Assembly: GCA_020072965.1 (NCBI GenBank)
Contig: JAIQFY010000019.1
Span: forward strand, 1-64,000
Direction of reading: 5' to 3'
Origin: Terriglobia bacterium
Lineage (GTDB): Bacteria > Acidobacteriota > Terriglobia > JAIQFV01
Length of the DNA: 64,000 nt
Below, piece by piece: positions 32,034 through 64,000 of this stretch. A program made the position numbers and the translations under genes. How positions within the stretch are numbered: position 1 is the stretch's first letter; each line of letters starts with the position of its first letter. The notes beneath the pieces were generated by a model. It saw only the letters and a program-made list of their open reading frames with translations, made no database searches and had not been told where the DNA came from.

Positions 32034-32456
32034 ATGGCCTCTCATGCCTTTTCTGAAATCTATCTTCACATCACCTGGCATACCAAGGACAATGCACAAG
32101 TCATCACCAACCACATTGAAGAACCGCTTCATCAATATCTCCAGTCGCGGGCCACCGAAACCCAGGCAGTTGAGGTCCATTCAATTGGTGGAATAGAAGA
32201 TCATGTCCATATGGTTGTTCGCGTTCCTCCGACCCTTTTGATCAGCGAGTGGATCGGTCAACTGAAGGGCGCGAGTTCCCACGAGATAAACAAGCGGGTG
32301 AGGCGTTCGTTATTGCATTGGCAGGAGGGATACGGTGTGGTCAGTTTCGGCAAGCAGGCGCTGACGAAGGTGGTGAGCTATGTCCAGAACCAGCGGGAGC
32401 ACCATGCGCGGGGGACCCTCTATCCGGCGTTGGAGCGCGTCGACGACGAGGAATAG
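32034..32456 (+). CDS. REP-associated tyrosine transposase, single-domain (IS200-like Y1 fold)
   Basis: 140 residues; ATG 32034 with AAAGGAG 5 bases upstream. An HUH single-strand nuclease of the Y1_Tnp family. It has the HUH motif as EDHVHMVV near residue 60 and a catalytic-Tyr helix as VVSYVQNQREHH near 115. Length and order are those of a standard single-domain IS200/RAYT protein. Palindromes of one family lie on both sides (31.1-31.95 kb and 32.5-32.76 kb), which fits a REP-associated transposase with its cognate REPs. There is no accessory tnpB or terminal inverted repeat. I infer a domesticated transposase that mobilises or maintains the family D palindromes. Confidence 0.87.
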   Translation: MASHAFSEIYLHITWHTKDNAQVITNHIEEPLHQYLQSRATETQAVEVHSIGGIEDHVHMVVRVPPTLLISEWIGQLKGASSHEINKRVRRSLLHWQEGYGVVSFGKQALTKVVSYVQNQREHHARGTLYPALERVDDEE

Positions 32457-53014: not shown

Positions 53015-53120
53015 AATCCCCCCAGCGGAAGCTGGGGGATCGTTCAATTCCGACCTACCCAATCGCCACCCCGGTCCTCCCGCAAATCCCACCGACGGCA
53101 GTCGGGGGATCGTTCAATTC
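53015..53120. repeat. Family E REP palindromes downstream of fumC
   Basis: Two palindromes in minus orientation. The first (53015-53058) has CCCCCCAGC-GGAA-GCTGGGGG; the second (53084-53120) has CCCACCGAC-GGCA-GTCGGGGG and abuts the truncated transposase copy exactly, at the position of the codons ELE. Confidence 0.85.
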
Positions 53121-53399
53121 CAGCTCACACACGGAAGCCAAATTGGGCTTTAGCGTCTGGATCACTTTCGAGATTGTCTGATCCGGACGCATGCTCAGGA
53201 GACAGCGAACTGAGTTGGGACACCATTTGGATTGGAGAAGATGATAGTCGTGGCGTTGGCAGATTTTGAGAAGGCGTGCCGTGAGCCTTTTCAGCGACGT
53301 TGGGGAAGTAAAAACCGCCCTCCGACGGTGAGTGCGAAAACAGATGTAGTCATGAAGCTGATAGGCCCAATTCAAGGGCTCATAAAGCTGGATATGCAT
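53121..53399 (-). pseudogene. Truncated double-domain RAYT, N-terminal domain only
   Basis: From ATG 53399 the protein matches the first 92 residues of the neighbouring intact transposase almost exactly (MHIQLYEPLNWAYQLHDYIC, then RHDYHLLQSKWCPNSVR and LLSMRPDQTISKVIQTLK). It stops matching after VCELE, where a REP palindrome begins. The part with the catalytic Tyr and the whole C-terminal domain are missing. An open frame runs into the REP, but this is not a functional enzyme. It is a truncated duplicate of the gene at 53754-54575. Confidence 0.85.
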
Positions 53400-53489
53400 G
53401 CGGGATCACTTTCCTGGGGGGAGATCGATAAAACTATTCTGCCATGCAGCGGGCAGAAGGGAAAGAAAAATTAGAGTGGGCTCTGCGGG

Positions 53490-53757
53490 GTAGGTTGGAT
53501 TTGAACGATCCCCCGACTGCCGTCGGGGGGATTGTTGTTCGGGAGGGCTTGTTTGTAGGTTGGATCTGAAAAATCCCCCGACTCCCGTCGGGGGGATTGT
53601 GGGTAGAGCACAACCTTTTCTTCTGCATCCAGCGCTTTAGAAAGAATCCCCCCAACGGAAGCTGGGGGATCATTCAAATCCAACCTACAGAAGAGCCGGC
53701 TCTGCATGGGAATAATCCCACCGACGGCAGTCGGTGGATCATTCATATCCCGCCTAA
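53490..53757. repeat. Family E REP array between two RAYT copies
   Basis: Four palindromes: 53490-53533 and 53555-53598 in plus orientation (GTAGGTTGGAT head, hairpin arms CCCCCGAC and GTCGGGGG), and 53645-53688 and 53714-53757 in minus orientation. A 45-base spacer (GGGTAGAGCACAACC and GCTTTAGAA at its ends) lies between the inverted pairs. The array recurs almost unchanged at 54665-54931. Confidence 0.88.
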
Positions 53758-54575
53758 GATCCGTCCTTCAAGAATTTCCTCATTAACGCCGTTGTGAATT
53801 CGCCGCAGGTTCCTGCATATGCCGAGTCCTCCCAGAGTCGCTCCATCCCCGCCCTCACTAACACCTCCGGAAAGTGTTTAGCCATGAAATACTGCCCGTT
53901 ATTCATCAACGCGAGTACGCAAGACTCCACGCTTGTCTTGGGCACAATTCTCATTAGCAGGTGTGCATGCTCCGGGAGAATGCTCATTTCATCAATCGCA
54001 AATTCCCGTTTCTCTGCCACCTTGAGCCAATAGTTTCCCAGCGCCTCGGCTGTGAAGGCATCAAACACCCCTCGCCGGTACTGGGTTGCCATCACCACGT
54101 GATGGCTCAACTCAAAGAAGGCATGCGCGGCCAGCAGGGGCCTTCTCTGGACGGCATGGTAACGAAATACGGGCGGATGCAGGCGCCCGGCGTATCCATG
54201 GTGCTCCGACTGCGCCTTCAAGTATTGACGCACGGCTGCCCGGTTCACACGCCCTGTACTTTTCGCCAGAAATCCACACGCCCATACCGGAGGTTCCAGC
54301 TCACACACGGAAGCCAAATTGGGCTTTAGCGTCTGGATCACTTTCGAGATTGTCTGATCCGGACGCATGCTCAGGAGACAGCGAACTGAGTTGGGACACC
54401 ATTGGGATTGGAGAAGATGATAGTCGTGGCGTTGGCAGATTTCGAGAAGGCGTGCCGTGAGCCTTTCCAGCGACGTTGAGGAAGCCAAAAGTGTCCTCCG
54501 GCGGTGAGATCGAAAACCGATGTAGTAATGAAGTTGATAGGCCCAGTTCACGGCCTCGTATAGCTGGATATGCAT
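53754..54575 (-). CDS. Double-domain REP-associated transposase with a split HUH/Tyr active site
   Basis: 273 residues. ATG 54575 follows CCAGGAAAG-type Shine-Dalgarno sequence; the frame upstream is REP-derived and not coding. Two Y1_Tnp-like halves. N-terminal half (about 1-130): ICQRHDYHLLQSQWCPNSVR shows the expected strand, but HUH is S-V-R; the Tyr helix is intact (GRVNRAAVRQYLKAQSEHH). C-terminal half (about 140-273): HUH intact as ILPEHAHLLM; the Tyr helix reads FTTALMRKFLKDGS, with Phe for Tyr. One complete HUH/Tyr set could form across the halves. Stop TAG overlaps the downstream REP. REP palindromes flank both ends. The copy at 62967 has the same pattern and length, which argues for function. 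Confidence 0.87.
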   Translation of the reverse strand: MHIQLYEAVNWAYQLHYYIGFRSHRRRTLLASSTSLERLTARLLEICQRHDYHLLQSQWCPNSVRCLLSMRPDQTISKVIQTLKPNLASVCELEPPVWACGFLAKSTGRVNRAAVRQYLKAQSEHHGYAGRLHPPVFRYHAVQRRPLLAAHAFFELSHHVVMATQYRRGVFDAFTAEALGNYWLKVAEKREFAIDEMSILPEHAHLLMRIVPKTSVESCVLALMNNGQYFMAKHFPEVLVRAGMERLWEDSAYAGTCGEFTTALMRKFLKDGS

Positions 54576-54664
54576 GCGGGACCACTTTCCTGGGGGGAAA
54601 CGATAAGACAATTTTGCCATGCAGTGGGCAGAAGGTAAATGAAATTTGGAGGAGGGCTGCGGAT

Positions 54665-54931
54665 TAGGCTGCATCTGAAGTATCCCCCGACTGCCGTCGG
54701 GGGGATTGTTGTTCGGCAGGGCTTGGTTGTAGGTTGGATCTGAAAAATCCCCCGACTGCCGTCGGGGGGATTGTGGGTAGAGCACAACCTTTTCTTCTGC
54801 ATCCAGCGCTTTAGAAAGAATCCCCCCAGCGGAAGCTGGGGGATCGTTCCTGTCCAACCTACAGAAGAGCCGGCTCTGCGTGGGAATAATCCCACCGACG
54901 GCAGTCGGTGGATATTTCAAATCCAGTCTAT
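54665..54931. repeat. Family E REP array, duplicate of 53490-53757
   Basis: Palindromes at about 54665-54708 and 54730-54773 (plus) and 54819-54862 and 54888-54931 (minus), with the same spacers as the array at 53490. The last one contains the stop codon of the decayed transposase remnant that follows. Confidence 0.85.
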
Positions 54932-55064
54932 AAGCCGTCTCTCAATAATGTCTTCATTAAGGCCAGCATGCATGTCTTCACGTTTGTTTCCTCCAGCGGC
55001 ACAGCAGAGGAGCACTCGCAGGGGACCGGGCAGACGGGAAAGAAGATTGAGAGGGGAGCGTGCC
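54928..55064 (-). pseudogene. Internally deleted double-domain RAYT remnant
   Basis: The reverse strand reads KTCMLALMKTLLRDGL then TAG (54928-54930). In the intact copies one finds SCVLALM near residue 220 and ALMRTFLRDGS at the end, so this remnant joins the two at ALM and lacks what lies between. Upstream the same DNA resembles the promoter-side leader of the intact genes (GGGCAGACGGGAAAGAAGAT and a REP head at 55065). It is a third copy reduced by deletion. Confidence 0.65.
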
Positions 55065-55174
55065 TTAGGTAGGATCTGAATAATCCACCGACTCCCGTCG
55101 GTGGGATTCTTGCTCCAGACCGCTTGTCTGGTAGGCTGAATATGAACAATCCCCCGACTGCCGTCGGGGGGATT
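55065..55174. repeat. Family E REP pair
   Basis: Two palindromes in plus orientation, 55065-55107 (GTAGG head, arms CCACCGAC and GTCGGTGG) and 55131-55174 (arms CCCCCGAC and GTCGGGGG). Confidence 0.85.
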
Positions 55175-55259
55175 CATGACAATCCATAACGGGCTCCTCC
55201 TCGAACGCTAGTCCAAGAAACTCACATATCGCTTCGAAGTCCGGGATTCACATCCGAGC

Positions 55260-55802
55260 TCACTTCCGGTTAATGGCCTCCTGAAAAATTTTAAAGGAAC
55301 GCGGATCAAACAAAACGAAGATCACATGCCCGACGCTTGACTGGGGGTGGCTCGGAGCGAAATCCCGGACTGCCCGGACCATGGCTCCTGCGCACTCGTC
55401 CGTGGGAAAACCAGCAACGCCCGTTCCCAAAGCTGGAAATGCCAGGGATTTCAGTTTGAGATCGGTGGCGACGAGGAGGCACGATTGCGTCGCCTTGTAG
55501 ATGATCTCGCCGCTGGTGAGAGAGCCGGTTCTCTTGGGCGCCCGTTCATCTTCCGTCCGGTAGCCCATAACCGCCGCATGAATGACCGCCTTGTTGGGAA
55601 GCCTTCCCGCCGTCGTCGCAACCGCTTCACCCAACCGGATCGGCCCTCTGGCCCGTGACTCCCGGTCCACAACGTCTCCCCCTTTGCGCCGTATGGCGCC
55701 TGCCACGCCTGCCCCCAAAACAAGGTCGGTGTTCGCCGCATTCACAATGGCGTCCACTTCGGTCTGCTCGGTAATGTCCCCCTCCAGCACGGAAATCTTC
55801 AT
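55260..55802 (-). CDS. Macrodomain protein (ADP-ribose / O-acetyl-ADP-ribose binding)
   Basis: 180 residues, ATG 55802. A stand-alone macrodomain of the AF1521/YmdB type: GDITEQTEVDAIVNAANTDL near 8-27 (the Asp and Asn contact adenosine and the distal ribose), LGAGVAGAIRRKGG near 29-42, and SLAFPALGTGVAGFP near 123-137 for the phosphates. Members bind ADP-ribose and remove acetyl or ADP-ribosyl groups. Length fits. It lies alone between the REP nest and lnt, divergent from lnt. Cytoplasmic. Confidence 0.9.
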   Translation of the reverse strand: MKISVLEGDITEQTEVDAIVNAANTDLVLGAGVAGAIRRKGGDVVDRESRARGPIRLGEAVATTAGRLPNKAVIHAAVMGYRTEDERAPKRTGSLTSGEIIYKATQSCLLVATDLKLKSLAFPALGTGVAGFPTDECAGAMVRAVRDFAPSHPQSSVGHVIFVLFDPRSFKIFQEAINRK

Positions 55803-56055
55803 GGCTCACCTCGAACTTCCCACCGGATCTTTTCATTTCCCGGGTGTGTCTTTCAGCGACTCTCATATGAGAAGATTCAGTGTGCTACAATTCCATCTCT
55901 GATCCAGTTCCCTATTGAGACGTGTTTCGATAATCGCTTTGCTCCATTGTACCCCAAACCCCCAAACACGGGTGGAGGTTTGCCGTGAGTCTTCTCGGAC
56001 GAATTTCCACACGGTTTACAGTTTGAGGCGGTGAATCCATGCGACAGGCCTGAAC

Positions 56056-57684
56056 ATGAATCCTCACTCCTCCACCTGGAGAGAAACGATCAAAACACTC
56101 CTGTCGAGCCCGACCGCGCGACGCGCCCAGTTAGCTGTTCTTTCGGGTTTCATGCTGGCCCTGATCTTCCCGAAGGTCAACTATGGCTGGCTCGCGTGGT
56201 TTGCGCTATTGCCCCTCTTCTTTGTTCTGCTTCAACCTATTACTCGTCGCGCCTCATTCTTGTACTCGCTCTTGTTCGGAGGGGTGTTCTACGCGTTGTT
56301 GCTTTACTGGGTCGTCGGGGTCATGCACCGATTCGGCCTTCTTCCTCTCCCGCTCGCCATCCTGTTCCTTCTCGGGTTTTCCCTTTACAATGGCCTGTTT
56401 CTCGCCCTATTCGGGATCCTGGCCCGCAAGATCCTGACGCAAAACTACCTCTTTTTGAAATGGTTTCTTCCGACCCCTCCTCAGATCGCCCTGCTGAATT
56501 CGGTGTTCGTGGCGGCCCTCTGGGTGGCCGTAGAGTTCCTCCAGACCCACCTCTTCGGCGGCTTTCCCTGGTGTCTGCTCGGTTATAGTCTTGTGAACTA
56601 CCTCGGTCTCATGCAAATGACCACGGTGACCGGAATTTACGGAGTTTCCTTCCTGGTATGCGGCATCAACGTCTTGCTGTCACATGCGCTATACCAGCGG
56701 AAACGGCCCCTGTTTGTGGGAATCGCCATTGTCCTTGGCTTGCTCCTTACGGGGGACTTCGCCGTTCGCACCTGGTGGCTGGGAGCATCGACAGAGACCG
56801 TTTCCTCGCGGCTGCAGGCAGGCCCGAGCGTTCATGACGTCGACATTCTTCAAGTGAATATCCCCCAAGACACAGATTGGACTCGACCTGTCTTTGATTC
56901 CTGGCTGTTGACGCTTGAAAAGATGATCCTCGCTTCCCATGCCGAGATTGCGGTCATGCCGGAAAACCCCGCACCTTTTTACTATCCCGATGACCGCGCC
57001 TTTACCGAGCGCCTCGAAGCGATGGCAGACCGTTCGGGGAGCTTTCTGGTGGCGGGTGTCGTGATGTCTCATGATGACGCGCAGGGTCAAGCCGGGACTT
57101 TCAACAGCGCGGCCACGCTGGCCCCCGACGGTCATCTCGTGGCGGCATATGACAAGCAACATCTTGTTCCTTTTGGAGAATACGTCCCCCTGCGAAAGTA
57201 TCTTTCATTTGCAGGGAAACTCACACGCGAGGTCAGCGATTTCACTGCCGGTGACAAGTTCACCCTCAGCCTGCTCAACGGAAACCGGGCTGGTATTTCC
57301 ATCTGCTATGAAGCCATTTTCCCGGACCTGGTCCGGCGCTTCACTGCCGCCGGCGCGGAAGTCTTGATCAATGTTACCAACGACGGCTGGTACGGGGATT
57401 CGTCTGCGCCCTATCAGCACTTTGAAATGTCCCGCGTCCGGGCCATCGAAAACCGCCGCTACCTGATTCGCGCCGCCAATACCGGGATCAGTGCTATCGT
57501 AGATCCTTACGGGCGAATCATTAAGAAGACGAAGTTGAATACGCAGGTGGTGCTTCATGGGGAATTTGAATACCGTTCTGACCAGACATTTTATGTTCGC
57601 TTCGGGGACGTCTTTGCGTGGCTGTGTGTGGTGTCGAGCGGAGGTTTCTTGATCTTCGTTTTTTTCAAGAGAAGAGAAGGTTGA
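56056..57684 (+). CDS. lnt: Apolipoprotein N-acyltransferase
   Basis: 542 residues, ATG 56056. N-acylates the N-terminal cysteine of apolipoproteins at the inner membrane, the last step of lipoprotein maturation in Gram-negatives. Residues about 20-245 contain six or so membrane segments. The nitrilase-type domain follows (about 265-500), with the Glu-Lys-Cys triad visible as VMPENPAP, DKQHLVPFGEYVPLR and GISICYEAIFPD. A final membrane segment lies at about 515-535. No strong ribosome binding site is seen. Its presence supports a two-membrane cell. Confidence 0.93.
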   Translation: MNPHSSTWRETIKTLLSSPTARRAQLAVLSGFMLALIFPKVNYGWLAWFALLPLFFVLLQPITRRASFLYSLLFGGVFYALLLYWVVGVMHRFGLLPLPLAILFLLGFSLYNGLFLALFGILARKILTQNYLFLKWFLPTPPQIALLNSVFVAALWVAVEFLQTHLFGGFPWCLLGYSLVNYLGLMQMTTVTGIYGVSFLVCGINVLLSHALYQRKRPLFVGIAIVLGLLLTGDFAVRTWWLGASTETVSSRLQAGPSVHDVDILQVNIPQDTDWTRPVFDSWLLTLEKMILASHAEIAVMPENPAPFYYPDDRAFTERLEAMADRSGSFLVAGVVMSHDDAQGQAGTFNSAATLAPDGHLVAAYDKQHLVPFGEYVPLRKYLSFAGKLTREVSDFTAGDKFTLSLLNGNRAGISICYEAIFPDLVRRFTAAGAEVLINVTNDGWYGDSSAPYQHFEMSRVRAIENRRYLIRAANTGISAIVDPYGRIIKKTKLNTQVVLHGEFEYRSDQTFYVRFGDVFAWLCVVSSGGFLIFVFFKRREG

Positions 57685-57741
57685 TACGCGCCGCAAAGAG
57701 GCTGGGAGCGCGGGACCTTGACACCGGCTCCGAGAGCCTCC

Positions 57742-58227
57742 TCACTCCTTTTCGACCAAATTGTCGACGAGCTGTGTCATTTCATCGATATGACCGCGAT
57801 CGTGCTCCACCATCATTAAGAGAATCCCTTCCAGGGTAATACGACCCACCGTTTCAAGCTCACCCTCGCGCTCCAGCGCTCCCGGCTTGATTCCTTTAAG
57901 AAGTTGCAGGCTTCGTACCCGCGCGACCCGAAAGATCTGTAAAGCTGCCATCAGGTCTTGAGCATTGTAATCGCGTTCCCGCGCCAGCCTGGCCCCGTCC
58001 ACGTCCGCAAGGCGGGGGTGCTCTTCGGTGAGCAGTTTTTCAATCCGCACGTTGTATCCTTCCGCCTCGATGTCCCGAAGGTGGCAGACATTTTCGAGAA
58101 TCGAAAAGTCCTCCGATGAGGGCTTCCAGGTTAAAGCCTGGGGATCGAGGTCCTGGGTGATTTGGAGAATCCGGTCAGGCGTCTCGCCCAGCGTCGTGAG
58201 GAAACGAACAAGCTCTTCGGGCTTCAC
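57742..58227 (-). CDS. DinB-like four-helix metal-binding protein
   Basis: 161 residues. DinB/YfiT-type fold with the three metal-ligand His positions as CHLRDIEAEGYN near 48 and MVEHDRGHIDEM near 140. The family includes metal-dependent thiol-S-transferases for bacillithiol or mycothiol, and many proteins of unknown role. It converges with lnt. The next gene upstream, the SRPBCC-like gene, is in the same direction 43 bases away, so the two may be cotranscribed. Confidence 0.82.
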   Translation of the reverse strand: MKPEELVRFLTTLGETPDRILQITQDLDPQALTWKPSSEDFSILENVCHLRDIEAEGYNVRIEKLLTEEHPRLADVDGARLARERDYNAQDLMAALQIFRVARVRSLQLLKGIKPGALEREGELETVGRITLEGILLMMVEHDRGHIDEMTQLVDNLVEKE

Positions 58228-58270
58228 CAGTGCTCTCCGTGTAAGCGTTCCGGTGGCAGCGTCCCCACCT

Positions 58271-58750
58271 TCACTTTTTTAGAGAAAGCCTTTCACCTGT
58301 CTTGAGATAATGGTTTAAGAGGGACTCCAGGATTTTCTTTTCTGTTGCATACCTCTCCTGCGAGAGACTTTCGATGAACCGGTTCCCCTCCTCGTTCAGT
58401 GCCGTGATGATCTGTTCCCATTCCGCGGAACTGGAACCGTCCGAATGGTCACGCAGAGTAATGTTGTATCGAATGACCTTGATCGCCCCGATCCGGACAA
58501 ACTGGATCGTGCGGTCGGGCTCGTACGCAATGACCACCCAGGTCTCATCACCCCCGTCTTCCGGAAAGTCTGTAGTAAAAATGCAGTTCTCTTCGGCGTA
58601 TCCGGAATCGGAATAGACCAGATGACACCGCCAGGTTTCAATCCAATCGTATTCGCGGGTGGGGCACAGGAGAGGAAAAACCTGTGAGGGGGGTGCCTCA
58701 TACTTTTGAGTGTAGGACAACCGTATGCGTTTTGCACTAAATGCAGCCAT
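58271..58750 (-). CDS. SRPBCC (START-like) family protein
   Basis: 159 residues; ATG 58750 is chosen for the AGGAGG six bases upstream. Sequence opens RLSYTQKYEAPPSQVFPLLCP, a typical helix-grip strand and first helix, then TREYDWIETWRC and later strands (TWVVIAYEPDRTIQFVRI, SAEWEQIITALNEEG), and a long C-terminal helix. This is the lipid or hydrophobic ligand-binding START-like fold. Ligand unknown. It may be in an operon with the DinB-like gene downstream and with the peroxiredoxin remnant and cupin upstream. Confidence 0.72.
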   Translation of the reverse strand: MAAFSAKRIRLSYTQKYEAPPSQVFPLLCPTREYDWIETWRCHLVYSDSGYAEENCIFTTDFPEDGGDETWVVIAYEPDRTIQFVRIGAIKVIRYNITLRDHSDGSSSAEWEQIITALNEEGNRFIESLSQERYATEKKILESLLNHYLKTGERLSLKK

Positions 58751-58785
58751 GTAAAACCTCCTCTTGGATGGCTGGGCGACAGTCA

Positions 58786-59055
58786 TCAACTCCTCTTGCC
58801 CGTCGCACCCTTCCCGTTTAACAAGAGCCATTCCGCCACTTCCCGCGCATTCTGATCCGGCGGGAATACCGGATAAAACATCTTTATTATTTTCCCCGTG
58901 TTGAGAATCATCGTCACCCGTTTAATCAGGATCATTCCCTCGACCTCAAATACAGGCAATCGCAGCGCTCCGGTGAAAGCAAGCGCCGAATCGCTCAGCA
59001 TCTCAAGTAGAGGTTGTCTTTCCTGGGTGTCATTTTGTTTTCGATCTATTCGCAA
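58786..59055 (-). pseudogene. C-terminal fragment of a peroxiredoxin-like protein
   Basis: The frame of about 89 residues opens with a TTG, and its body (LAFTGALRLPVFEVEGM, then LIKRVTMILNTGKIIKMFYP and VFPPDQNAREVAEWLL) matches the C-terminal half of peroxiredoxin/AhpC-TSA-like proteins of the LPTFEVAGM-to-YPVFPPD type. The N-terminal half with the peroxidatic Cys is absent. The fragment abuts the 3' end of the cupin gene by 6 bases. I read it as a 5'-truncated remnant that may still be transcribed. Confidence 0.6.
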
Positions 59056-59061
59056 TCCAGG

Positions 59062-59424
59062 TCATACCCTGTCCAGGTTGGGTGCCGTCAAACTGGCATC
59101 AACGACATTGCCGGTATTTCTAGTTCCAGCGGGCTCAAAAAGGAGGACCTCGACTTCTTCGTCAGCCACGGGCCTGTGTTCCACCCCGCGCGGGATGACA
59201 ATCATTTCGCCCTGTGCGAGCTCGACGACGTGATCTCGAAACTCGACGCGGAACTCTCCCTTCCACACGAGGAAAAGCTCATCCTCATGGGCATGATGAT
59301 GCCAGACGAATTCGCCCTTGAACTTGACGAGTTTGACTTCCTGTCCATTCAGGGCCGCAACTACTTTGGGTCGCCAATGGTCCGCGAAAAGAGAAAACTT
59401 CTCAGCAATGTTGGTCTTCTTCAT
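59062..59424 (-). CDS. Small cupin-fold protein
   Basis: 120 residues, ATG 59424. A single cupin barrel with metal ligands at EFVWHHHAHEDELF near 38-51 (His, His, Glu) and GVEHRPVADEE near 80 (His). Stand-alone small cupins include sugar isomerases, dioxygenase-like proteins and storage-like proteins, and no substrate can be named here. It lies 50 bases downstream of the phosphatase gene in the same direction. Confidence 0.8.
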   Translation of the reverse strand: MKKTNIAEKFSLFADHWRPKVVAALNGQEVKLVKFKGEFVWHHHAHEDELFLVWKGEFRVEFRDHVVELAQGEMIVIPRGVEHRPVADEEVEVLLFEPAGTRNTGNVVDASLTAPNLDRV

Positions 59425-59474
59425 TCCATTCCCCCAGATGCATCGATCCGGTTCAGCACACTAGTCCCGGCGGG

Positions 59475-59918
59475 TCATGGCACATCATCGCCGATGCTCA
59501 GGCGCCCCTGAATATGCTCCACGGCGGATCCGGTCCGGGAGATTCCCGCATTGCAATGCACCAGAACCGGTTTGGGAAGGCGCAGATATGCTTGCCAGAC
59601 CTGTTCGAGTTGTTCGGCGGAGAGCGGCGGCCACTGGAAATCTTTAGCCGGAATGTGGGCGACCCGAAATCCGGCGTCCTCATAATAATCCACGAGACCC
59701 GTCGGGAGTCCGGGACAGAAGGACATCTGTTCTTCCGCAAGAAGACAAAGAATCGATTTGATCCCCATGTGGCGCACCGATTCAAGCCACCGGTCGACAT
59801 CCTCCTGCGATGTTTCAGCATCCAGCCCGTCAAAACCCGGTCTGCAACTTCGAGCCAGCAGGTCCTCCATAACCCACTCGATCATATCAAGCATCCTATA
59901 ATCGAGGATCCACCCCAT
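59475..59918 (-). CDS. Dual-specificity / tyrosine protein phosphatase
   Basis: 147 residues. Cysteine phosphatase with the P-loop HCNAGISRTG (Cys near 126, Arg near 132) and a general-acid Asp upstream in IPAKDFQWPPLS near 93. The fold matches compact dual-specificity phosphatases, and the length is typical. Upstream DNA (59919-60139) shows no gene. With the cupin and remnant downstream it may form a small operon; target not known. Confidence 0.87.
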   Translation of the reverse strand: MGWILDYRMLDMIEWVMEDLLARSCRPGFDGLDAETSQEDVDRWLESVRHMGIKSILCLLAEEQMSFCPGLPTGLVDYYEDAGFRVAHIPAKDFQWPPLSAEQLEQVWQAYLRLPKPVLVHCNAGISRTGSAVEHIQGRLSIGDDVP

Positions 59919-60139
59919 GGCGCACCCTAATGCGGGCCTGCGTTCAGGAGCTGAATCCCCGAAGAATTATCACCCACCGGTTGTGTAAGATTCGCCGACG
60001 AATCATCGGGAGTATACCGCCCCTCAGATAACCGGGCAAGAAAAGGGACATTCAGGGATGAATTAATTCCTCGGAGGGAAGCGAAGCGCGCTCTGGGCCT
60101 CAGGGGTGAAATGGTGAAGTAGTGAAGCGTAGGACATGG

Positions 60140-62401
60140 TCAATTTGAAGTTACGTCATAAACCTTACCATCGAGAACGAACCTTACTTTTTTACCCAAT
60201 GAGAAGTACTCTGCGGCCTCGGGGATTTGCACCGCCAACTTGAAATATTCCTCGCTGCCAAATTCCATCTTCACCTCCGGGAGTTTATTCTGGGCATTGT
60301 ATTCGGAATCCACCCACACGCCCTCTTTCAGGATGAAGGTCTTGTTGTGAACATGGCGGACACTGCTTAGCCCGGAAACTTCGGCGCGCTCCGCGGCTTT
60401 GAGTCGTTGCAGGGTGACACTGGATTGGACCGCATTCGAGCCTGATTGTGCGGCCATGTCCACCGACATGGTGGCGGCCGGGGAGGGGGCCGATTTGGAC
60501 ATGGGCCCGCCCATGGCGCCTCCGACAACACCGCCCATCGGGACCGGCCGCATTGCCTGGCGGTCCTCTTCCGTAATCAGGAAAGAGGTGTAGGGTGTGG
60601 CGATGCCATACCGGGTCGCAAGCTCGACGATTTCGTTTTTTACTTCCTTGGTCTCACCATTCAGCCGGATCTGGTCCATCAAATAGCCCACCTTCCGGAT
60701 GGCCCACAGCCGCGGGATGAAGTCGGTTTCAGAATTCTCTGATGGGAACGCCAGGGTCCCCAGTGCAAACATGCGCCGTCCCGAATTGACTTCCCCTTCG
60801 AGCTTCGCGTTGACCGAATGGCTGCCTGTGTAACGCCCTACAATTACTAACTGGGAGCCCTTGAACAAATCAGGCAGCACCCTGGGAAAGACATCGTCGA
60901 CTTTTACATCTCCCAAGTCCAGCTTCAGGTTCGTCAGTACCGGGGAATTCACTTTCGTGAAGATATTGGAGACGCGCACCTCCAGGTCTTCCTTCGGAGC
61001 GATGTACTCGGCGACCCCGTGGTTATGTTCGGCCAGGGGATCCAGAAGATGGGTGTTGACATCGTATCCCACGCCGACTGTGAAAAGGCGCGCATGGGTA
61101 GGGTTTGCTTGTTGAGCGTTGGTGAGGATTCGGCTGATACTCTGCTCCCCCACGGTGGGCAGGCCATCGGTCAAGAAGACGATGAAGTGAGGCCGCATGT
61201 CCTCGCGGAACATTTTCAGGGCGGCGAGCAATGCCGAGTTAATATCAGTTCCCCCGTTGGCCTCCAGCTTTGACACATATTCCACGGCGCGCTCAATCCC
61301 GGCCGAATTGGCGGGCGCCAGCTCCGTTTCAAAAAGATGCTCCTCGCTCGCAAAGTGAATGATATTGAAATAATCGGAGGGGTGAAGCGAACGAATGCCG
61401 AATTTCAAAGCCTCTCGCGCCTTGGTGATCTTTCCCTCTTCACTCATAGAGCCGGAAGTGTCAAGGACAAAGACGATATCCTTGGGAACCGTCTCGCTCT
61501 GTTTCAACTCGATCCTCGGCGAGAGCAGCGCAATGAAGAATCCGTCCTTGCCCTTTTCACGATAGGTCAAAAGGCTCAAACCGAATTCCTTGTCCGAAAG
61601 CGCGTAATACAGAATGAAATCCTGGGGGGGCTTCACCATTGACAGTTCGAAGCTCGCAGAGGCCCGGTTTTCGCCCTTGCGGTTAACTTCCAGGGCGTGG
61701 GTGGGCGAGTAGATGTTTTTCAGCCCCACATTGGACGTAATTTCGACCTTTCCGGCCAGCGTTCCGATTGGCTGTGGCAAGGCATTGTGGCCGACTCCGA
61801 GAGGATACTCGAATTTCACAGTCCCCTGCTCCGCCTTGAGTATCTGGGAATAACGGATTTCGATCTTCTGTTCACTCCCGGGAGCAATAGGAAAGACGCG
61901 CGCCTGGAAAAGGTTTTTGCCCACATACTCGAGCAAGCCGGGATCGCGCAACCGGCGGACAATCTCGTTGTAGGTCTGCCGGGCCTTGTCGCGCTCCACC
62001 AGCTCTCCCACGATGCGCTTGCCCCCGGTCCACATGGCAAACTCTTCGATGGAGGCACTCTCAGGAATTGGAAAATAAAAAACCCCCTCGGCAGCCCAGC
62101 GGTTGGGATTTTCGAAGACTTGCTCGATATGGGTCCTGGCCACCTGATTGTTGATAGTTGTGGCAAACGTAATCGATTTCACCGGAAGGGGTGCTCCCAG
62201 CTCCACGCAAGGAGGCCGCTGAGGTGGCATTGGCCACGGACCTGGACAACGGCGCGGGAAAATGATTCCCTGACTGAAAACGAGCGAAGGCAGAATGCAA
62301 CCCAGGAGGAAAACAAACACGCCCGCAGTCGTGATGACCGTGCGGCATTGTTTAGCGTTTTGCGATTTCAAGCCCAGAGAAGTGGTTTGTTGCGCTGCCA
62401 C
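60140..62401 (-). CDS. VIT and VWA domain secreted protein
   Basis: 753 residues. GTG 62401 has an excellent site (GGAGGTGATC, seven bases away), so GTG is the likely start. Signal peptide about 20-45 (TAGVFVFLLGCILPSLVFSQ). A VIT domain follows at about 70-215 (HIEQVFENPNRWAAEGVFYF, FPIAPGSEQKIEIRY), then a VWA domain with an intact MIDAS (FVLDTSGSM near 310, FLTDGLPTVGEQ). A Gly/Pro/Ser/Ala/Met-rich stretch lies near 590-630, and a beta-rich C-terminal part at 640-750. This layout resembles inter-alpha-trypsin inhibitor heavy chains and the bacterial VIT-VWA proteins, which bind metal-dependent partners. Its partner is not known. Confidence 0.9.
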   Translation of the reverse strand: MAAQQTTSLGLKSQNAKQCRTVITTAGVFVFLLGCILPSLVFSQGIIFPRRCPGPWPMPPQRPPCVELGAPLPVKSITFATTINNQVARTHIEQVFENPNRWAAEGVFYFPIPESASIEEFAMWTGGKRIVGELVERDKARQTYNEIVRRLRDPGLLEYVGKNLFQARVFPIAPGSEQKIEIRYSQILKAEQGTVKFEYPLGVGHNALPQPIGTLAGKVEITSNVGLKNIYSPTHALEVNRKGENRASASFELSMVKPPQDFILYYALSDKEFGLSLLTYREKGKDGFFIALLSPRIELKQSETVPKDIVFVLDTSGSMSEEGKITKAREALKFGIRSLHPSDYFNIIHFASEEHLFETELAPANSAGIERAVEYVSKLEANGGTDINSALLAALKMFREDMRPHFIVFLTDGLPTVGEQSISRILTNAQQANPTHARLFTVGVGYDVNTHLLDPLAEHNHGVAEYIAPKEDLEVRVSNIFTKVNSPVLTNLKLDLGDVKVDDVFPRVLPDLFKGSQLVIVGRYTGSHSVNAKLEGEVNSGRRMFALGTLAFPSENSETDFIPRLWAIRKVGYLMDQIRLNGETKEVKNEIVELATRYGIATPYTSFLITEEDRQAMRPVPMGGVVGGAMGGPMSKSAPSPAATMSVDMAAQSGSNAVQSSVTLQRLKAAERAEVSGLSSVRHVHNKTFILKEGVWVDSEYNAQNKLPEVKMEFGSEEYFKLAVQIPEAAEYFSLGKKVRFVLDGKVYDVTSN

Positions 62402-62572
62402 TTGATCACCTCCGGTCCGGCTCCAGAGAAATCAGGATTCTCACCCCCACTGCATCATCGGACCTTCACCAGGTTAGACATCGGGAATCACGGAAAAGTT
62501 CGAATTATTAGATGCAACCGGGGGAAGAAGAGATACATTCTGAATAATATCATCAATGGGGGGTGGCGCCGT
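62402..62572. other. Leader of the VIT-VWA gene; nothing further seen
   Basis: No gene and no palindrome. It separates the VIT-VWA start from the REP array at 62573. Confidence 0.5.
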
Positions 62573-62970
62573 GTAGGTTGAATCTGAACGGTCCCCCGAC
62601 TCCCGTCGGGGGGATTGTGGGTCCGAGGGCTTGTTCGTAGGTTGGATCTGAACGATCCCCCGACTCCCGTCGGGGGGATTGTGGGTCCGAGGGCTTGTTC
62701 GTAGGTTGGATCTGAAACATCCCCCGACTCCCGTCGGGGGGATTGTGGCTCAGGATCGCGCGTTGGGTAGGCTGGATCTGAACGATCCCCCGACTCCCGT
62801 CGGGGGGATTCAGTGCTGAACACAACCATTTCTAGTTCATTCCAGCACCGCAGCTAGAATGCCCCCAGCGGAAGCTGGGGGATCGTTCCCGTGCAGCCTA
62901 CAAACACGTCCGTTCTGCAAGAGAGCAATCCCACCGACGGCAATCGGTGGATATTTCAAATCCGGCCTAA
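62573..62970. repeat. Family E REP array, 64-base period
   Basis: Four palindromes in plus orientation start at 62573, 62637, 62701 and 62767 (period 64, 64, 66). Each has a GTAGGTTGGATCTGAAC head and hairpin arms CCCCCGAC / GTCGGGGG; the spacer GGGTCCGAGGGCTTGTTC is conserved in the first two. Two more in minus orientation follow at 62858-62902 and 62927-62970; the last contains the stop codon of the transposase gene. Confidence 0.9.
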
Positions 62971-63788
62971 GATCCGTCCCTCAAAAATGTCCTCATCAAC
63001 GCCGTTGTGAATTCGCCGCAGGTTCCAGCATACGCCGAGCTCTCCCACAGTTGGTCCATCCCTGCTCTCACGAGGATCTCCGGAAAGTGTTGAGCCATGA
63101 AATGCTGTCCGTTATTCATCAATGAGAGTACGCAAGACTCCACGCTTGTCTTGGGCACAATTCTCATCAGCAGGTGTCCGTGGTCCGGCAGGATACTCAT
63201 TTGATCAATGGCGAATCCCCGTTTTTCCGCGACCTTGAGCCAATAGGCCCCTAATGCACGGGCAGTGGAAGCACCAAACACGGATCTCCGAGATTGGGTC
63301 GCCAACACTACATGGTGGCTCAAATCAAAGAAGGCATGCGCTGAACGCAGCGGTTTTCGATCCTGCGTCCGATAACGAAAAACGGGCGGAGCAAGGCGTT
63401 GAGCGTATCCGTGGTGCTCTGTCTGAAGCAATAGATACTGACGAACAGTCTCCCGGTTCACTCGCCCTGTACTTTTCGCCAGAAATCCACGTGCCCACAC
63501 AGGAGATTCCAAGTCACACGCCGAAACCAGATTCGGCTTGAGGGTCTGGATCACTTTTGAGATCGCTTGATCCGGACGCAAGCTCACCAGCAAGCGAACC
63601 TGATTGGAACGCCATTTGGATTGGAGGACGTGATAGTCATGGCGTCGGCAGATTTCGAGAAGGCGTGCTGTGAGCCTCTCCAGAGACGTCGAGGAACTGA
63701 AAAGTGCCCTCCGACAGTGAGAGCGAAAACAGATGTAGTAATGAAGTTGATAAGCCCAATTCAAGGACTCATAGAGCTGGATATGCAT
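62967..63788 (-). CDS. Double-domain REP-associated transposase, second intact copy
   Basis: 273 residues from ATG 63788, with AGGAAAG nine bases upstream, the same length as the copy at 53754. N-terminal half has N-Q-V-R at the HUH position (SKWRSNQVRLLVSL) and an intact Tyr helix (GRVNRETVRQYLLLQTEHH). C-terminal half has HUH as LPDHGHLLM and Phe for Tyr (FTTALMRTFLRDGS). Stop TAG (62967-62969) lies in the head of the downstream REP. Upstream, the first REP begins 93 bases before the ATG. The sequence is clearly diverged from the 53.7 kb copy in many positions, yet the residue exchanges at the two active-site motifs agree, which suggests that the pattern is inherited and kept rather than decay in one gene. 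Confidence 0.87.
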   Translation of the reverse strand: MHIQLYESLNWAYQLHYYICFRSHCRRALFSSSTSLERLTARLLEICRRHDYHVLQSKWRSNQVRLLVSLRPDQAISKVIQTLKPNLVSACDLESPVWARGFLAKSTGRVNRETVRQYLLLQTEHHGYAQRLAPPVFRYRTQDRKPLRSAHAFFDLSHHVVLATQSRRSVFGASTARALGAYWLKVAEKRGFAIDQMSILPDHGHLLMRIVPKTSVESCVLSLMNNGQHFMAQHFPEILVRAGMDQLWESSAYAGTCGEFTTALMRTFLRDGS

Positions 63789-63880
63789 GCGGGACCACTT
63801 TCCTGGGGGGAGATCGATAAGACAATTCTGCCATGCAGCGGGCACAAGTGAAAGGAAATTTAGAGGGGGGCTCTTCGGGG

Positions 63881-64000
63881 TAGGCAGGATCTGAACAATC
63901 CCCCGACTCCCGTCGGGGGGATTGTGGCTCAGGATCGCACGTTGGGTAGGCTGGATCTGAACGGTCCCCCGACTCCCGTCGGGGGGATTGTGGCTCAGGA
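63881..64000. repeat. Family E REP palindromes at the right edge
   Basis: Two palindromes in plus orientation, 63881-63924 and 63946-63989 (arms CCCCCGAC and GTCGGGGG). The array probably goes on beyond the window. They are upstream of the transposase gene. Confidence 0.88.

Follow-up and report, generated by a model that had tools for sequence, protein, structure and literature searches.

Double-domain transposase genes at the locus

The window, a stretch of 64,000 nucleotides from a Terriglobia bacterium (contig JAIQFY010000019.1), carries two intact genes for double-domain Y1 transposases on its minus strand. Copy 1 (P0001) lies at 53754..54575 and copy 2 (P0002) at 62967..63788. As the initial annotation had it, each gene is an unbroken frame of 273 residues encoding two Y1_Tnp-like halves, and Pfam detects a pair of Y1_Tnp stretches per protein, with a summed score of approximately 107 bits against a cut-off of 23. 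The two proteins are 79% identical and copy 2 is collinear with a single copy in a genome of the same genus (G001). A third copy (53070..53399, minus strand), absent from the initial annotation, lies near the intact genes. It comprises residues 1-108 only, ending before the Tyr helix, and is joined to REP sequence.

The genes are embedded in arrays of REP hairpins with a (G)TAGG foot. For both genes the TAG stop codon is given by the TAGG foot of a REP on the minus strand, at 53714..53756 for copy 1 and 62927..62969 for copy 2. Copy 1 has two further REPs downstream (53489..53598, plus strand), two upstream (54663..54772, plus strand), one upstream in the inverted orientation (54888..54930, minus strand) and two farther upstream (55064..55174, plus strand). 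Downstream of copy 2 there is a four-REP array (62573..62810, plus strand) and upstream of it are two REPs (63880..63989, plus strand); one more REP lies just beyond the window end on this upstream side. Allowing up to 3 mismatches, the REP pattern matched the genome 60 times, 18 of these on this contig, and a reversed control 0 times. The stems covary, with 25 cells compared with 4.9 in shuffles, and none of the 500 shuffles scored as high. At homologous loci hairpin-like repeats flank the gene in nine of nine cases, and in six of these a TAGG foot was seen by eye. From this neighbourhood the REPs are probably the target that is cut or bound by the fused enzyme.

Active-site residues of the two halves

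The proteins had been labelled as RAYTs, a label that the profiles do not bear out. The window copies score 36.4 and 35.2 bits with the TnpAREP/RAYT model NF047646, missing its cut-off of 80, and 117.5 and 121 bits with the IS200/IS605 TnpA model NF033573, passing the cut-off of 55. Judged by profile they are IS200-type TnpA proteins and not classical RAYTs. The RAYT model is related to the double-domain family by sequence, matching 14 of the 15 members of our alignment (A4) at E ≤ 0.001 (best 7.5e-19), and NF033573 matches 15 of 15 at the same threshold.

The active site of IS608 forms in trans: Tyr127 and Gln131 come from one chain and meet H64 and H66, which the other chain contributes (PMC5934647). 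The N half of the window proteins has lost both His residues of its HUH motif, which reads S63-V-R65 in copy 1 (54381..54389) and Q63-V-R65 in copy 2, but retains the Tyr helix VRQYL. This helix holds the putative nucleophile Tyr118, with its codon at 54222..54224 in copy 1 and 63435..63437 in copy 2, followed by Gln122 (54210..54212 in copy 1), the fourth residue past the Tyr and comparable to Gln131 of IS608. The C half retains its HUH, as H203-A-H205 in copy 1 (53961..53969) and H203-G-H205 in copy 2 (63174..63182), but at the position of the Tyr in its last helix, MRKFL or MRTFL, it carries Phe268 (53772..53774 in copy 1, 62985..62987 in copy 2). All of these codons, positioned from the reading frames, are on the minus strand, and the residues are as first annotated. 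An overlooked Tyr in the C half was ruled out; the protein stops five residues past Phe268 with no Tyr downstream, and phmmer pairs the catalytic Tyr of ISDra2 TnpA with Phe268 itself. Among PDB chains 2xo6, a Y132F mutant, scored best.

Conservation of the residue pattern among homologs

Homologs of the double-domain protein were found in 12 genomes of the phylum Acidobacteriota, the hosts including some soil and groundwater bacteria. As the search covered a sample of 396 genomes, with no more than 5 or 6 candidates scored in each, the member total is a lower bound. Other phyla were searched with two short clade A patterns only, by which divergent members are the least reachable, so a range limited to Acidobacteriota is not implied. 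A scan of genome contigs with P0002 alone gave 24 pattern stretches and no relative. Viral contigs scanned with A2 gave 77 stretches and no relative, and with A5 two weak matches of approximately 400 bases each. Among plasmids there were no records with 80% cover for P0002 or P0009 and no match for L099. P0008 gave 28 records with 80% cover, and the 8 of these that were listed span approximately 370-525 bases, each being one domain matched by both halves.

The alignment of 15 sequences includes L024, which runs into a contig end, and L035, whose start has been lost; repeats of one gene (L013, L016-L021, L075-L078 and others, duplicating P0001-P0006, L012 and L014) were dropped. Tyr118, Gln122, His203 and His205 are each present in 15 of 15. 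The Tyr motif of the N half reads Y---Q--HH or Y---Q--RH across the members, with the first His kept in 13 of 15 and the second in all. An intact N-half HUH is found in 0 of 15 sequences; the first His is present in 6 and the second is gone from all 15. In the most divergent members residues 63-65 are aligned with less certainty, yet no H-x-H is visible there. The Tyr position of the C half, which could be read in 14 sequences, is Phe in nine, Tyr in two, Val in two and Trp in one. Of the loss pattern seen in the window, the part concerning the N-half HUH holds in all 15 sequences; the C-half Tyr has not been lost everywhere, being kept in 2 of 14. Homologs complete in both halves, or randomly decayed, which would have spoken against a composite site, were not encountered.

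Changes were counted on a tree of the 14 sequences complete at the C end, with a gap treated as a state at position 272. The mirror positions 63, 65, 268 and 272 required 7, 4, 3 and 9 changes, respectively, and the four kept residues 0. In the same set 16 of the 273 columns are invariant.

The broken or partial copies outside this count conform to the same pattern. L015/L022, which has a frameshift, reads N-L-R in the N half, with the Tyr kept, HIH and Trp, and L031/L036 reads H-L-R, with the Tyr kept, HVH and Phe. L033/L038, also with a frameshift, has T-D-V, the Tyr kept, HLH and Tyr, making it a third case with a C-half Tyr. L032 has an N half without HUH as read, the Tyr kept and HLH, its end being missing. 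L034 and L039 have HVH and HTH, respectively, each with Phe, and the third copy in the window has S-V-R and is cut before the Tyr. A remnant, L008, is found in genome G129.

Selection on the double-domain gene

The dN/dS is approximately 0.2, being 0.18 between copies 1 and 2 and 0.20 against the G001 gene. Taking the halves separately, three pairs gave values of 0.20-0.29 for the N half and 0.12-0.16 for the C half. The gene is under purifying selection. Frameshifts, stops or contig ends interrupt several of the homologous copies, and the genes are therefore dispensable; draft metagenome-assembled genomes also carry errors. These broken copies, like the truncated third copy in the window, are what would be expected if the genes were IS remnants whose residue pattern arose by chance decay. 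We regard such decay as very improbable given a dN/dS of approximately 0.2 over the full length, the same pattern in all 15 sequences, the spread over 12 genomes and the collinear gene in the same genus.

Ancestry of the two halves

In the phylogenetic tree the N halves are split off together by one branch (98/91) and the C halves by another (100/99), each split being found in 100% of bootstrap trees, and neither half nests among the 28 single-domain rows. Because the N halves and the C halves are each one clade, a single ancient fusion event would seem likely to lie behind the family. Forcing the N and C halves together gave a log-likelihood 2.9 above that of the free tree (p-AU 0.599), and, with three RAYT rows added, 1.9 below it (p-AU 0.285). 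The source of the fusion may have been a doubled gene or the joining of two different TnpA genes, both being compatible with these topology tests.

Structural modelling

An AlphaFold model of the single chain, based on the alignment of 15 sequences, had a pLDDT of 90.9 and a pTM of 0.88. Residues 124-131 have a pLDDT below 50, and because the block 121-130 averages 49 the position of Gln122 is placed without confidence. When its own last helix is included, the C half superposes on ISDra2 TnpA (2xm3_A), a crystal structure of a dimeric enzyme, with a Z-score of 12.5 and an rmsd of 1.8 over 125 residues. For the monomeric TnpAREP 4er8 the best superposition aligns 110 residues between model residues 12 and 273, a weak match (Z 7.0) given by its end points; such a span is as would be expected were the C-half helix packed at the core of the N half. 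The last helix varies among TnpA crystals, with 2xma, 2vhg, 2vjv, 2ec2 and 2f4f fitting at rmsd 3.4-5.0, and 2a6m, 2a6o and 2fyx align only up to model residue 259-261. Fold matches to 3w3s, ribosomal S6 and others, at Z ≤ 7.2, we take as common arrangements.

The fused chains might dimerise again, such that the working site would form between two polypeptides, from the N half of one and the C half of another. The residue pattern would fit this equally well. We consider it improbable, as the pTM of 0.88 suggests defined packing within the chain, a weak argument given that one chain was modelled.

Discussion

Taking residues, model and neighbourhood together, the best explanation, with a probability of roughly three in four, is that in the double-domain protein nature has joined the two subunits of an IS200/IS605-type Y1 transposase dimer into one chain, which has a single composite active site formed in trans and uses it on REPs. 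The proposal of a fused dimer in which one composite site is retained and the other lost gains support in that the residues kept in every sequence are those that form the trans site of IS608. The ordinary enzyme has two identical chains and two sites, each made from the HUH of one and the Tyr and Gln of the other. In the fused chain H203 and H205 of the C half, together with Tyr118 and Gln122 of the N half, would make the site that is maintained by selection, and the mirror site, from the N-half HUH and the C-half Tyr, would be dead.

The protein probably binds the surrounding GTAGG-footed REP hairpins, and single-stranded REP DNA would be nicked and rejoined through one 5'-phosphotyrosine at a time. 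Strand transfer in IS608 involves a swing of the helix from trans to cis. In the fused protein Tyr118 no longer has the HUH that such a swing would require, so classical two-ended excision and insertion of an IS would not be expected. The outcome would be a one-site REP-processing enzyme resembling the monomeric TnpAREP, arrived at by a different route.

The four kept residues could instead serve in binding DNA and metal without cleavage. In a related view, in which sites form in cis, both would be lost and the catalytically dead protein would survive as a regulator that binds REP hairpins. Cis sites do exist in the superfamily, as E. coli TnpAREP appears to be monomeric according to the survey PMC6006769, and in the window copies the full cis set is missing from both halves, the N half having the Tyr without HUH and the C half HUH without the Tyr. 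A dead protein nevertheless seems unlikely to us, since the four residues are invariant across clades that have diverged, their complementary counterparts being variable, and exactly the set needed in trans would be unlikely to persist. An older paper guesses that RAYTs too form dimers (PMC2817692), and the contrast with a monomeric TnpAREP therefore rests on the E. coli protein.

The proposed single-chain dimer shares features with several known systems. It is like the IS200/IS605 TnpA proteins (IS608, ISDra2; subclass 1.1 as given in PMC6006769) in fold, domain family, best NCBIfam and PDB match, and in an active site divided between the HUH of one subunit and the Tyr and Gln of the other. 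It differs from them in that the two subunits are one chain with one site of two kept, and in having REP arrays around the gene and few copies per genome. Elements of the IS200/IS605 group are mobile insertion sequences, frequently accompanied by tnpB, whose ends carry subterminal hairpins. With subclass 1.2 TnpA-Y1, found mainly in Cyanobacteria and Bacteroidetes in that survey, it shares low copy number and the Y---Q--HH signature in its N half (PMC6006769), although the single-domain genes of that type that were examined carry HUH and Tyr in one domain. Like the TnpAREP/RAYT proteins (class 2; E. coli 4er8), it has GTAG-footed REP hairpins alongside that recur genome-wide, few copies and one active site per protein. 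It has two domains, however, with HUH and Tyr in separate ones, and lacks the YxxxNP motif, the type listed for class 2 (PMC6006769). Class 3 TnpA-Y1, portrayed there as possibly intermediate between IS and REPtron, also occurs in Acidobacteria with REP-like repeats, but is described as having 178 residues, a single domain and a CnGA foot (PMC6006769), compared with 273 residues, two domains and a GTAGG foot here.

A fused or double-domain Y1 transposase was not found among the literature matches listed, which comprised titles and abstract openings of mainly open-access papers. In the survey of PMC6006769 proteins that were fused or had incomplete motifs were set aside, being regarded as fusions, misannotations or probably without function; proteins set aside in this way may conceal enzymes that are kept by selection. 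With identical chains it is difficult to test by what steps a transposase turns into a resident REP enzyme, and which part each site of an IS200-type dimer plays. In the fused protein the pairing would be locked and one site lost, so that each half could be mutated separately. We think it likely that the fused asymmetric Y1 dimer with a single composite trans site is an old Acidobacteriota family and would represent a second, independent path by which an IS transposase with two sites became a REP-processing enzyme with one, evolution having fixed the trans state, which IS608 is believed to give up in strand transfer.

Two double-domain genes and their proposed active-site residues

The window contains two intact frames on the minus strand, copy 1 (53754-54575) and copy 2 (62967-63788), each encoding 273 residues with two Y1_Tnp stretches and sharing 79% identity. 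In the N half of both, S-V-R or Q-V-R stands where the HUH histidine pair would be, with VRQYL in the last helix of that half. The C half carries HUH as HAH or HGH and its last helix reads MRKFL or MRTFL; the catalytic tyrosine of ISDra2 TnpA aligns onto Phe268 in phmmer. Re-reading of both frames confirmed these residues as reported in the initial annotation. A third copy (53070-53399, minus strand) is truncated after residue 108 and runs into REP sequence, and these three are the only genome-wide matches to the fused protein at E ≤ 0.001. The Y1_Tnp family as a whole accounts for 36 matching stretches in the genome. Also inside the window (32052-32393, plus strand) is a Y1_Tnp gene with one domain, whose motifs read Y---Q--HH and DHVH; G001, a genome of the same genus, has a similar gene (L060, L068). 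Frames resembling RAYTs, the REP-associated transposases, in their Y-x-x-L-N motif and their length (L108, L109; open frames of 293-372 aa) occur twice in the window's genome and once in G001, so the fused class shares these genomes with other Y1 classes.

Conservation of the proposed site

The pattern was followed through an alignment of 15 double-domain sequences (A4), of which 14 have a complete C end. Tyr118 and Gln122 of the N half and His203 and His205 of the C half are present in all 15, as is His126, with His125 in 13. Position 63 is His in six sequences and otherwise Gln (3), Asp (2), Ser, Asn, Arg or Lys (1 each). Since position 65 is never His (Arg 11, Gln 2, Leu 2), the N-half HUH is intact in 0/15. 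Loss of the C-half tyrosine is not universal, its position being Phe in 9, Tyr in 2, Val in 2 and Trp in 1 of 14. On the 14-row tree no change is needed at any of the four proposed site residues, against 7 at position 63, 4 at position 65, 3 at position 268 and 9 at position 272 (where a gap counts as a state). Sixteen of 273 columns are invariant; by hand arithmetic the chance of all four named columns lying among them is about 8 in a million, although conservation of catalytic columns would be expected anyway. The telling contrast is that the mirror columns of the proposed site, unlike its own columns, are not conserved.

Predicted structure

AlphaFold gave a model with pLDDT 90.9 and pTM 0.88 from the 15-row alignment, against 68.7 and 0.62 from a 6-row alignment. 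The C half of the model with its own last helix superposes on ISDra2 and IS608 TnpA with Z 12.3-12.5, at an rmsd of 1.7-2.1 over 125-128 residues for 2xm3_A, 2xo6_D, 6fi8_B, 2vic_B, 2vju_A, 2xqc_D and 2vih_B; the remaining TnpA entries gave 3.4-5.0 or aligned only to residue 259-261, short of that helix. For IS608, PMC5934647 describes the last helix as swapped, with Tyr127 and Gln131 of one chain meeting H64 and H66 of the other. A weak fit to the monomeric TnpAREP 4er8 has only 110 residues aligned (Z 7.0) and informs on range only; because it spans model residues 12 to 273 it faintly suggests that the N-half core and the C-half helix imitate a one-chain site.

Distribution, descent and selection

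Close relatives are scarce, being found in two of the 61 genomes nearest to the window, its own included. Profile searches, whose counts include the window's genome wherever it was sampled, matched 5/396 genomes across the phylum (one with a remnant only), 13/162 in the class of G310, 5/349 in the window's class and, with a profile of divergent members, 22/396, though many matches in the latter three are ordinary single-domain TnpA. When the profile was built from the two most divergent members, 5/396 matched. A scan of a genome-contig collection returned five loci, all in MAGs labelled Acidobacteria or its classes (Pyrinomonadaceae, Blastocatellia, gp4), which are the same genes as in G531, G389, G559, G522 and G426. 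The finding is real and broader than could be seen from the window alone. Double-domain genes, whole or partial, were read in 12 genomes (G000, G001, G224, G310, G389, G426, G521, G522, G531, G534, G559 and G574). In G224 there are two divergent paralogs, L079 and L099, which share 49% identity and have Val at the C-half tyrosine position and Arg in place of the first His of the HH pair.

One branch, with support 98/91, sets the N halves apart from all other rows, and another (100/99) does so for the C halves; both appear in 100% of the bootstrap trees. When three RAYT rows are included, the N-half branch has 94/87 and appears in 98%. As each half falls on its own branch, there was probably a single fusion event, and the trees are compatible both with the doubling of one gene and with the joining of two. 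The C-half tyrosine is present without an intact N-half HUH in the complete members from G426 and G574 and in a frameshifted copy from G521, and no double-domain member read has an intact N-half HUH. This suggests that the N-half HUH was lost first and that the partnerless C-half tyrosine later drifted to Phe, Trp or Val.

The fused protein is under selection. The dN/dS is 0.18 for copy 1 against copy 2 and 0.20 when the comparison is with the G001 gene. Calculated separately for the two halves over three pairs, it is 0.20-0.29 for N and 0.12-0.16 for C, and it is 0.52 for the truncated third copy against copy 1. The G001 gene and copy 2 are collinear, L004:1-2515 aligning end-to-end with window 61419-63994 at 81%.

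REP arrays beside the genes

Around the genes a 43-45 base element is repeated in arrays; it consists of GTAGG-NNGNATNTGAA and then a hairpin. Searched for without its leading G, the pattern is matched 60 times in the genome at ≤ 3 mismatches, 18 of them on the window's contig, and never in the reversed control; as it was fixed in advance, stems of greater divergence are missed. In 40 of the 60 REPs, which were aligned, 97.8% of stem pairs are standard, and stem cells changed on both sides number 25 against 4.9 in shuffles (0/500 as high). Two other covariation measures, which count pairs and types of pair, are less clear (4 pairs, 28/500 as high; 9 types, 267/500 as high). Hairpin-like repeats adjoin the gene in all nine homolog loci examined, by eye with a TAGG foot in six (L004, L005, L006, L012, L023, L030) and other feet in three (L007, L041, L099). 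L099 has its own inverted repeats in its flanks. The flanking repeats of the G426 member (L007:1197-2713), which keeps the C-half tyrosine, are unlike the others (GGAGGTAACGAACCCCGGAGG...), and the REP type may have changed along with the enzyme.

The stop codon was checked in 11 genes. In six, copies 1 and 2 included, it is a TAG that belongs to the foot of the next REP; for copies 1 and 2 it is supplied by the GTAGG-type feet of REPs at 53714-53756 and 62927-62969 (both minus strand). In two further genes a TGA stop lies inside the next REP. With the stop codon within the REP, gene and REP form one unit in these cases.

Proposed mechanism and relation to known families

The best reading, in keeping with the composite active site of the initial annotation, is that both subunits of a dimer are joined in a single chain and share one trans site, made of the C-half HUH and the N-half Tyr and Gln. 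Single-stranded REP DNA would be nicked through a 5'-phosphotyrosine and then rejoined, and the second DNA-binding face may bind another hairpin where two REPs are paired in inverted orientation. Strand transfer in IS608 uses a helix swing. A similar swing here would place Tyr118 at the N-half HUH, which is dead, and for this reason two-ended transposition is not expected.

By profile the window copies are IS200-type, scoring 117.5 and 121 bits with NF033573 (cut-off 55) against 36.4 and 35.2 bits with the RAYT model NF047646 (cut-off 80). The two models overlap, since at E ≤ 0.001 they match 15/15 and 14/15 rows of A4. The N-half tyrosine motif, Y---Q--HH, is the signature that PMC6006769 gives for subclass 1.2. 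In that survey a few proteins of unexpected length were set aside as fusions or annotation errors, and both HuH and Y were required of the proteins retained, so double-domain fusions could have dropped out of it. Other sources describe Acidobacteria tyrosine transposases with TIR flanks, HUH and Tyr being conserved in all those aligned there (PMC3733652), guess that RAYTs form dimers (PMC2817692), and discuss single copy number and domestication (PMC8266576). No description of a fused Y1 transposase was found in the literature searched, at the level of search listings. The fused protein is a new architecture inside a known superfamily, with predicted catalysis and a predicted site geometry.
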